Source of the DNA: Thalassotalea sp.
Lineage (GTDB): Bacteria > Pseudomonadota > Gammaproteobacteria > Enterobacterales > Alteromonadaceae
Length of the DNA: 32,633 nucleotides
Assembly (NCBI GenBank): GCA_029237915.1
Contig: JAQWHD010000026.1
Span: 1-32,633, forward strand
Reading direction: 5' to 3'
Shown: positions 7,270-9,391 of the stretch, in pieces
How the letters are laid out: each line of letters begins with the position of its first letter
Numbering within the stretch: the stretch's first letter is position 1
Made by a program: the position numbers and the translations under genes
The notes under the pieces: model-generated
Seen by the model: the letters and a program-made list of their open reading frames with translations, nothing else
Database searches by the model: none
Told to the model about the DNA's origin: nothing

Positions 7270-7638
7270 TTAAAATAAATATGTTTGTTTATTAGTGGCT
7301 ATTAATACGATCAAGGCAATACAGCTCATAGCACCTAAAAAACCAATAAATTGCTTGGTTGTGTTGCGAGCAAGTTTTAAGGTGTAATAACCCATAATAA
7401 TATAGGTAAGTACCAATAAAAGCTTTTCGCTTATCCAGCTTACATGCCATGGATATAACGACAAGTTAATCACCATAATGATACCTAAAGTAAATAAAAC
7501 GGTATCTATGACATGAGGGGTTATTTTTAACCACTTACTATTAAGTGCTTTATTATTATTTATTAATAAAATAAAACGGATAATAAATAAAATAACAGAG
7601 CATGCCGCTACTAGCATATGTGCGTGTTTAATTAACAA
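7270..7638 (-). CDS. sirB2: SirB2 family inner-membrane protein
   Basis: A 122-residue protein with four predicted transmembrane segments and the SirB2 pattern: KHAHMLVAACSVILFIIRF at the N-terminus and HVIDTVLFTLGI in the second helix. The role is unknown; the name comes from early Salmonella work, and the gene travels with sirB1 and kdsA. The start appears to be TTG at 7638 with AGG seven bases upstream. An ATG at 7617 would remove the conserved KHAH stretch. The prfA-prmC genes that usually precede it are absent; instead a 452-bp non-coding region with DnaA boxes lies upstream. Confidence 0.85.
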   Translation of the reverse strand: MLIKHAHMLVAACSVILFIIRFILLINNNKALNSKWLKITPHVIDTVLFTLGIIMVINLSLYPWHVSWISEKLLLVLTYIIMGYYTLKLARNTTKQFIGFLGAMSCIALIVLIATNKQTYLF

Positions 7639-8090
7639 GCCTTGACCTAAACCATAATAAAATCAGCTGCGCATTCTAACATAGATAAAGCTATTTAGTA
7701 AGTTAAGCAAGAGCGCTCAAATCATCTACATGTCTCTATTAACATGATCGTTTGCCGATCATATTTTTCACAATTTTTTTCATCATTGATCTTAATAAAG
7801 CAGTATTTTAGTACGAAAATAATACAATATTTTTACAACATCTTAAATTGTTCATAAATTAAGCGCATGCTGACAGTTCAAGCTGTATCAAGGGTGCGAT
7901 CATTTGCACCAAGCTAACACACAAAGTTATCCACAGATTGAGTGAATAACTTATGATAATGTGAATAATTAATTGGCAAAAATTAAGATCAAAGGATCTT
8001 ATCAACGAAAAACGCCATTAATAAAAATTAATGGCGTTTAAATGTGAATAACTTTAGGCTAATACCTAAAGCATTAACCTCAAGTAGTGA
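7639..8090. other. Non-coding region with DnaA-box cluster and GATC sites
   Basis: A 452-bp gene-free stretch between sirB2 and sstT. It contains three sites matching TTATNCACA exactly: TTATCCACA at 7927-7935 (plus), and TTATTCACA on the minus strand at 7960-7968 and 8043-8051. A near-match lies at 7941-7949. Six GATC sites fall within 253 bp (7746, 7757, 7788, 7898, 7987, 7995), several inside short inverted repeats: 7744-7762, 7893-7910 and 7985-8000. A very AT-rich stretch (7761-7860) adjoins. The make-up recalls a replication origin or a DnaA-titrating or DnaA-reactivating site. No origin-marker gene is nearby, so its role is undetermined. Confidence 0.6.
8008..8038 (-). terminator. Rho-independent terminator of sstT
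   Basis: AACGCCATTAAT (8011-8022) and ATTAATGGCGTT (8027-8038) form a perfect 12-bp stem with a 4-nt loop. On the minus strand it is followed by a T run. It lies about 50 bp past the sstT stop, inside the DnaA-box region. Confidence 0.85.
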
Positions 8091-9314
8091 TTAGTTATTT
8101 GATTGTAGTGATTTTTCAATATGATGCGAAGCCGCCGCTGAAAATACCACATCAGTCGAGCTATTTAACGCAGTTTCAGCTGAATCTTGAATAACGCCAA
8201 TAATAAAGCCGATTGCAACAACTTGCATAGCAACATCATTATTTATACCAAATAAACCACAAGCTAAAGGAATAAGTAGTAAAGAGCCACCGGCAACACC
8301 AGAAGCACCACAAGCTGAAACAGAAGCTATAACACTTAATAATATTGCTGAGCCTATATCAATATTAATATTTAAAGTGTGGGCAGCTGCTAAGGTTAAT
8401 ACCGTAATTGTGATTGCAGCCCCTGCCATATTGATGGTGGCACCTAAAGGAATAGATACTGAGTAGGTATCTTCGTGTAAGTCTAGCTTTTTACATAACG
8501 CCATATTTACAGGGATATTAGCGGCTGAACTACGAGTAAAGAATGCGGTAATACCCGACTCTCTTAAACAAGTAAATACTAACGGGTATGGATTAGTGCG
8601 GGTAACTAAATAAACAATCAATGGATTAACCACTAAAGCGATGATCAACATTGAAGACACCAACACTAGCACCAATTGACTGTATTCAGCTAAAGCACTA
8701 AAACCAGTTGTCGCAATTGTATTAGCAACTAAACCAAAAATACCGATTGGCGCTAACTTTATAACAAATCGAACTAATGCAGAAATCGCTTCAGCCATAT
8801 CATGAACGGTAGATTTAGTCGTATCTTTGGCTTGTTTTAAGGCAAAACCTAAACCTAAACCCCAAGCTAAGATACCAATAAAGTTACCTGTAGCTATGGC
8901 ATTAATTGGGTTATCAACGATTTTAAAAATTAATGTGGTCAGTACTTCTTGCAGTCCTTTAGGTGGATTAGCAGTTACACCGGCTAAATCTAATGTGAGC
9001 GAGGTTGGAAATAAAAAGCTCATCATAACCGCGACTAGCGCAGCACTTAATGTACCAATTAGGTATAAACCAACAATAGGTTTTAAATTAGCGTCACTGT
9101 TGAGCTTTTGATTTGCTATTGATGAAACAACTAACACAAAAACTAATATTGGTGCCACAGCTTTTAGACCACTAACAAACAGATCACCTAATAGTGATAC
9201 TGACTTAGCGGTATCTGGTGCTATAACAGCAACAACACAGCCTAAGAAAATACCGATGACAATTTGGCCTACTAAGCCAACCGATTTTATTTTTGTAAAT
9301 AATGAAGTACTCAT
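8091..9314 (-). CDS. sstT: Na+/serine-threonine symporter SstT
   Basis: Sodium-coupled importer of serine and threonine in the inner membrane (dicarboxylate/amino acid:cation symporter family). Starting at the ATG at 9314 the product has 407 residues; E. coli SstT has 414. That ATG is chosen because AGAGGA lies six bases before it; an in-frame TTG five codons upstream overlaps this site. Family landmarks include [36 protein letters not shown] (the serine-rich re-entrant loop), [19 protein letters not shown] and [21 protein letters not shown]. Eight or more transmembrane segments are evident. It is a single gene with its own terminator at 8008-8038. Confidence 0.95.
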
Positions 9315-9391
9315 TATTATTCCTCTCAATGTAATTTAGTTTAATTTAAAATTATTATTATTTTGTGGTTAATATATTTTTTGGTTTGTCG

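Follow-up and report, generated by a model that had tools for sequence, protein, structure and literature searches.

A probable DARS1-type DnaA-reactivating sequence between sirB2 and sstT in Thalassotalea

The window, by which we mean the whole stretch of 32,633 bases analysed here, contains a gene-free region bounded by sirB2 and sstT, both encoded on the minus strand (Table 1). This intergenic stretch holds the only exact DnaA boxes (TTATNCACA) of the window, at 7927 (+), 7960 (-), and 8043 (-), which together span 125 bp (7927-8051). Two boxes with one mismatch lie beyond the core described below, at 7764 (+) and 7849 (-). Six GATC sites (7746, 7757, 7788, 7898, 7987, and 7995) fall within 253 bp and form the densest GATC cluster of the window. 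An earlier note on this DNA had counted three exact boxes, one near-match, and six GATC sites in 253 bp, and our recount gave exactly the same numbers. It had also claimed that boxes and GATC sites exceed the expectation from base composition, and 5,000 dinucleotide shuffles of positions 7640-8090 agree: exact boxes average 0.05 per shuffle and reach three or more in none of them, and GATC sites average 0.99 and reach six or more in a single one. The AT-rich segment mentioned in the same note corresponds to positions 7760-7859, which are 80-82% AT.

The near-match of the earlier note is box I of a three-box core, which reads TAACACACA-AAG-TTATCCACA-GATTG-AGTGAATAA. The weak box III and the regular geometry of the core (box III, 3 bp, box II, 5 bp, inverted box I) had been overlooked, and they belong to the part of the stretch that is conserved. 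Between the core and sstT lies a perfect inverted repeat with 13-bp arms, which is kept in the closest relative (G013). It is absent from the output of our terminator scan and is possibly the stem of the sstT terminator, outside the DnaA site.

Table 1. Features in and around the sirB2-sstT intergenic stretch (positions in the window; station C is the site beside sirB2).
Feature	Position	Strand	Sequence	Basis or conservation
DnaA box III (core), weak, 2 mismatches to TTATNCACA	7915..7923	+	TAACACACA	geometry fit
DnaA box II (core), perfect	7927..7935	+	TTATCCACA	identical in 14/14 station-C loci
DnaA box I (core), inverted, 1 mismatch	7941..7949	-	TTATTCACT	one mismatch in 14/14 station-C loci
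Fis-like palindrome, starts 65 bp before box III	7850..7864		GTTCATAAATTAAGC	at most 1 mismatch to GNNYANNNNNTRNNC in 14/14 loci
Further exact DnaA box	7960..7968	-	TTATTCACA	same place only in closest relative (G013)
Further exact DnaA box	8043..8051	-	TTATTCACA	same place only in closest relative (G013)
Six GATC sites	7746..7998			without conservation across the genus
Perfect inverted repeat, directly after sstT	8010..8039		AAACGCCATTAAT-AAAA-ATTAATGGCGTTT	read from sequence
sirB2, gene on box III side	7270..7638	-		PF04247, 3.4e-34
sstT, gene on box I side	8091..9329	-		NF010151, 1.3e-191

We searched the intergenic stretch as DNA in 59 genomes, including the one under study, and found matches in 22 of them. 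Apart from this genome and G013, the matches are 28 to 60 bases long, and nearly all lie around 7915-7950, with a common motif consisting of a weak box, 3 bp, TTATCCACA, 5 bp, and an inverted box. The exceptions are one locus matching another part of the stretch (L021) and one with a poor inverted box of 3 mismatches (L013). Within the genus, sirB2 was found in 14 of the 15 genomes, the fifteenth, which is 78% complete, giving no sirB2 match. The core is present on the upstream side of sirB2 in all 14, always with spacers of 3 bp and 5 bp, and with one or two mismatches in box III (see Table 1 for boxes I and II). These loci are mutually related, and their agreement does not amount to 14 independent events. 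The gene beyond the core is sstT in 13 genomes; in G002 it encodes another protein, only 26% alike. Information per base across the 14 loci is 1.0-1.7 bits in the core blocks, 0.4-1.1 on the box III side, and 0.15-0.26 on the box I side. Beside sirB2, no other part of the stretch is as well conserved across the genus as the core. Conservation of the boxes between sirB2 and sstT in relatives had been set beforehand as the sequence half of the test of a DnaA-regulatory locus, and it is this core, with matching geometry, that the relatives have kept. We discarded the GATC cluster as a functional part of the site: the loci carry 0-7 GATC sites, and six or more are found only in our genome and in G013. 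A local role of GATC at the window site is conceivable because SeqA is present in our genome.

Excerpts of PMC5742627 describe the DARS core as three boxes, with box I opposite to boxes II and III and with equal spacing in DARS1 and DARS2. The window site has three boxes in this arrangement and with the spacing of DARS1; it is non-coding, placed between oriC and the terminus, and kept at a conserved place within the genus. Escherichia coli DARS1 (NC_000913, reverse strand) reads TAATACACA-TGG-TTATCCACA-GGAAT-AGTGGATAA. The two sites share the order, orientation, and spacing of the boxes, most of their letters, and the pattern of strengths (weak box III, perfect box II, box I with one mismatch). 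In both, the box III side points towards the start of the neighbouring gene. They differ in their neighbours (bioD-uvrB in E. coli, sstT-sirB2 in the window), in box III, which has one mismatch in DARS1 (TAATACACA) and two in the window, and in the Fis-like palindrome, which stands at 64-65 bp from box III and has no counterpart at -65 in DARS1. DARS2 (rppH-mutH) has the same core geometry with weaker boxes, as read by eye, the automatic geometry fit having chosen another place in the DARS2 locus. According to passages of PMC4245941, DARS2 requires Fis and IHF; the window too has a Fis-like site, and its IHF-like matches do not exceed chance. The Fis-like matches of DARS2 fall between +102 and +272, on the box I side, apart from a poor one at -112, whereas that of the window lies on the box III side. 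DARS2 is also a longer element, of 455 bp in the description given in PMC5742627, against roughly 100 bp conserved at the window site.

We conclude that the window site is probably a DARS1-type DnaA-reactivating sequence, and the case for its membership in the DARS family, as judged from sequence, is strong. The corresponding part of the earlier reading, a DARS-type regulatory locus, is supported; its alternatives of an origin or relict origin and of a datA site are not. DARS sites are described as preferring ADP-DnaA, with boxes I and II holding two DnaA molecules head to head, upon which ADP leaves and the apo-DnaA binds ATP (parts of PMC5742627, PMC8682772, and PMC4245941). In the window core, box II and the inverted box I, 5 bp apart, form a head-to-head pair, with the weak box III in tandem 3 bp behind box II, and by analogy with E. 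coli the same nucleotide exchange would take place there. Conversion of ADP-DnaA to ATP-DnaA is the best reading of the site's putative function. With less assurance, binding of Fis to the palindrome that lies 64-65 bp from box III might tune the exchange with growth. The DnaA of our genome is identical to that of E. coli at 359 of 449 aligned residues and keeps R281, R285, L290, and R334, and Hda (TIGR03420) and SeqA are present. Against the DARS reading stand the weakness of boxes I and III in the window and the conserved flank on the sirB2 side, which could serve a sirB2 promoter. IHF-like matches at no more than chance level also count against it, as does the lack of a Fis-like site at -65 in both E. 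coli DARS1 and station A, a second core place in the genus.

To place the core on the chromosome, we computed replichore fractions with dnaA as the origin and the opposite pole as the terminus, for eight of the nine closed genomes (G008 was left out). In these eight relatives, the replichore fraction of the site beside sirB2 (station C) is 0.63-0.80. Two further places carry a core in the genus: station A, at a MATE gene and tRNA-Asn, at 0.88-0.95 (7 genomes), and station B at 0.72-0.92 (7 genomes, including a poor core in G002). The values for E. coli are 0.66 for DARS1, 0.41 for DARS2, and 0.20 for datA. GC skew, sampled in G001 alone with symmetry assumed for the other genomes, reverses its sign at 1.64-1.72 Mb on a chromosome of 3.37 Mb, close to the halfway point, some earlier samples being near zero or slightly negative. 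A consensus search for dif sites as markers of the terminus gave none in the 15 genomes.

These positions bear on the other ways of explaining the cluster. The joint presence of boxes, GATC sites, and AT-rich DNA would suit a chromosomal origin or its relict, as the earlier note had suggested. Yet our genome has an oriC-like cluster at another place, flanked by mioC and mnmG on the contig that carries dnaA (C25:29437-29551), and therefore the window site is no origin. It fails as oriC on gene context (mioC/mnmG and dnaA nearby) as well as on position, being displaced towards the pole opposite to dnaA in the closed relatives. Nor does it qualify as a site controlling a chromid, such as crtS, the trigger of Vibrio chromosome 2. 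Nine of the 15 genus genomes are single contigs, all nine carry the window-type site, and there is therefore no second chromosome for it to control in them; our own genome, in 71 contigs, falls outside this argument, which covers those nine. Origin, relict origin, and chromid control are thus scarcely credible. A site that soaks up DnaA by titration, or that speeds ATP hydrolysis in the manner of datA, seems improbable. In its favour are the four boxes, counting the near-match, in an AT-rich neighbourhood, and the two or three exact boxes in six of the 14 loci (three loci each). The other eight loci have a single exact box (the G002 stretch being taken to 420 bp in this count) and are therefore a poor fit to pure titration. 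Like the window site, datA is a gene-free cluster of DnaA boxes, but its essential boxes all point in the same direction and are accompanied by an IHF site, as excerpts of PMC5742627 have it. In the window, box I is inverted and no IHF-like site stands above chance, and we accordingly rejected the identification with datA.

A different kind of explanation is that the core is a promoter element of sirB2-sirB1-DUF819-kdsA, controlled by DnaA (and Fis) without nucleotide exchange, DnaA acting as a transcription factor as has been proposed for E. coli uvrB and nrdA. The distance from box II to the start of sirB2 similarity is 236-330 bp in 14/14 loci, compared with 36 to 386 bp to sstT in the 13 loci with that gene, and it is the flank towards sirB2 that is conserved. 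Arranged in tandem 3 bp apart, boxes III and II also resemble the double boxes with 2-3 bp spacing that PMC11317965 describes as targets of DnaA in general, nrdA, polA, and purH among them. The window adds a third, inverted box at exactly 5 bp, which is foreign to the double-box site of that source and is nonetheless kept. Moreover, the three-box unit precedes unrelated genes at the other stations, and the region has no more promoter-like matches than chance would give (6 against 3.9, sd 2.1). We therefore regard exclusive promoter control as rather unlikely. The DARS and promoter roles are not mutually exclusive, and the site could possibly have both at once; DnaA regulation of uvrB, the neighbour of E. 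coli DARS1, is reported (PMC6015884). Read by eye, the side of box III is turned towards the start of an adjacent gene at station A (MATE), at station C (sirB2), in DARS1 (uvrB), and in DARS2 (mutH), an orientation that may hint at shared promoter control. Finally, the inverted boxes II and I can be drawn as an 11-pair stem of an RNA hairpin or transcription terminator, and the terminator scan does flag a stem at 7924-7952 on the minus strand. Its tail is not T-rich in that scan, and box I varies while box II is invariant over the 14 loci, so that the changes break the stem. A hairpin is thus a most improbable account of the core.

A scan with the three-box pattern, allowing at most 3 mismatches, gave matches in 142 of the 147 genomes scanned in the family and in 149 of the 197 in the order, where the reversed pattern used as control gave 2 and 0 hits, respectively. 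At most 30 loci were fetched from each scan. The pattern was absent from the sampled genomes of eight families (f3, f4, f7, f13, f14, f19, f23, and f24). In the loci fetched from other genera, cores are mostly found at stations A and B. Three genomes of other families (L009, L015, and L018) have the core beside uvrB, the neighbourhood of E. coli DARS1, and one genome of the same family (L014, G034:C7:171729-174757) has it between rppH and mutH, the neighbourhood of DARS2. Within the genus, station A has a core in 12 of the 15 genomes. Station B was met in at least nine, without a dedicated search of the rest, with a good core in eight and the poor one in G002. It is flanked by an ACT-domain gene, an arsC-like gene, and dapE on one side and by a methyltransferase gene on the other. 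Our genome carries all three stations (A at C35:15335, B at C65:17741, and C at C61:7920). At station B, the core lies upstream of the ACT-domain gene (L205, from our genome's C65, and L193-L200), and box I is perfect in 9/9 loci, unlike at stations A and C.

As a control on spacing, we left the spacer free from 0 to 25 bp between TTATCCACA and the following GTGNATAA in the 15 genus genomes, counting palindromes once. The inverted pairs occupy 40 distinct places: the spacer measures 5 bp in 25 of them, 24 bp in 8, and 17 bp in 4, the remaining three being single cases of 4, 7, and 18 bp. Of the eight 24-bp pairs, the seven whose distance was computed (all but that of G008) lie within 12 kb of dnaA, and the oriC-like cluster of our genome carries a pair of this class. 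The four 17-bp cases are station B cores in which the matched pair consists of boxes I and III.

The presence of the core beside sirB2 is associated with gene order. A query with the DUF819 gene gave 290 named loci, of which we took the best 80 (the SirB2 query confirmed no named relatives). Four of these have the core with 1-2 mismatches of 23, and the other 76 have at least 6. The carriers are Thalassomonas sp. M1454, Thalassotalea sp. ND16A, Thalassotalea sp. 42_200_T64, and Thalassotalea litorea, and they are not all new cases, since at least M1454 and 42_200_T64 are also among the genus genomes. They are the only ones of these best 80 loci with a match to tilS or sstT in reach; T. litorea has the 26%-alike relative. 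Of the 76 loci lacking the core, 62 have sirB2 and 14 gave no sirB2 match, in some cases because the contig ends. In both core-free loci that we checked (L091 and L092), prmC is directly upstream of sirB2. In the named loci examined, the core is found only where sirB2 adjoins sstT/tilS, which ties it, at sirB2, to an arrangement of genes peculiar to this group. One group of marine bacteria seems to have acquired it as an additional copy, and the third station has so far been seen only in the Thalassotalea genus set.

Stations B and C share a second element. We searched for Fis-like sites with a loose 15-base pattern (GNNYANNNNNTRNNC) of the form found in excerpts of PMC8682772, and the resulting counts come from related loci and are not independent. 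At station C, a match with at most one mismatch lies at -65 from box III in 12/14 loci and at -64 in the other two, whereas an offset has on average 0.26 loci (360 offsets scanned) and the next best has 5. It has no mismatch in 5/14 loci, including the window. At station B, the match is at -64 or -63 in 8/9 genus loci; in other genera it is at -63 or -64 in 6/11 loci, at -66 in one, and none is near in four. This agreement between B and C despite different neighbours is the stronger point in favour of a putative Fis arm. At station A, no Fis-like site stands at -65 (20 mismatches, where shuffles average 21.7 and 257 of 1,000 are as good), and the commonest offsets are -19 (7/12) and -141 and -121 (6/12 each), which speaks against a universal Fis arm. 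Of the features of the DARS2 subtype, the window has a candidate Fis-like site at a fixed distance, and its IHF-like sites remain at chance level. At station A, an IHF-like YAANNNNTTGATW (at most 2 mismatches) recurs at -97 in other genera (14/24 loci) and at -96 within the genus (8/12 loci). At station B, WATCAANNNNTTR recurs at -29 in 8/11 loci of other genera.

To our knowledge, most experimental work on DARS sites concerns E. coli, which has two known ones. Sequence comparisons extend to its near relatives (PMC4245941, PMC8682772). Among the matches listed for the open-licence literature, there is no DARS report for Colwellia, Thalassotalea, or Alteromonadales, and none of the matches listed reports a DARS1-type core at the present place, one of three in these genomes. 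Since the pattern finds cores in three-quarters of the genomes of the order and its control finds none, the number, place, and neighbours of the core can be compared over many genomes. We tentatively propose, with somewhat less than even confidence, that three stations serve the DnaA cycle of the genus, that the third arose when the sirB2 cluster came beside sstT/tilS, and that it is of a mixed type. By this we mean a DARS1-style core with a Fis arm 64-65 bp away on the box III side, the side opposite to that of E. coli DARS2, in an arrangement common to the ACT/dapE station. If so, the number, place, and wiring of the stations of the DnaA clock would be open to evolution. In E. coli, relocation of DARS2 disturbs the timing of initiation, as described in part of PMC5742627. 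A genus with a third station, and with one as far along the replichore as station A when the two of E. coli are at 0.66 and 0.41, would offer a natural test of how the dose and position of reactivation sites relate to initiation timing.

Two minor observations concern other DnaA-related loci in the genus. In G002, three equal-scoring DnaA-domain-like matches of 254 aa (C1:1056649, 2965353, and 3000278) occur in addition to DnaA and Hda, and they are perhaps the ATPase of a repeated mobile element. In our genome, a cluster at G000:C43:105994-106202 (L203, 1495-1703) has a weak inverted pair with the 5-bp spacer, together with a double box, TTACTCACA-AAG-TTATCCACA, and an inverted TTATTCACA; it could be a datA or a promoter site.
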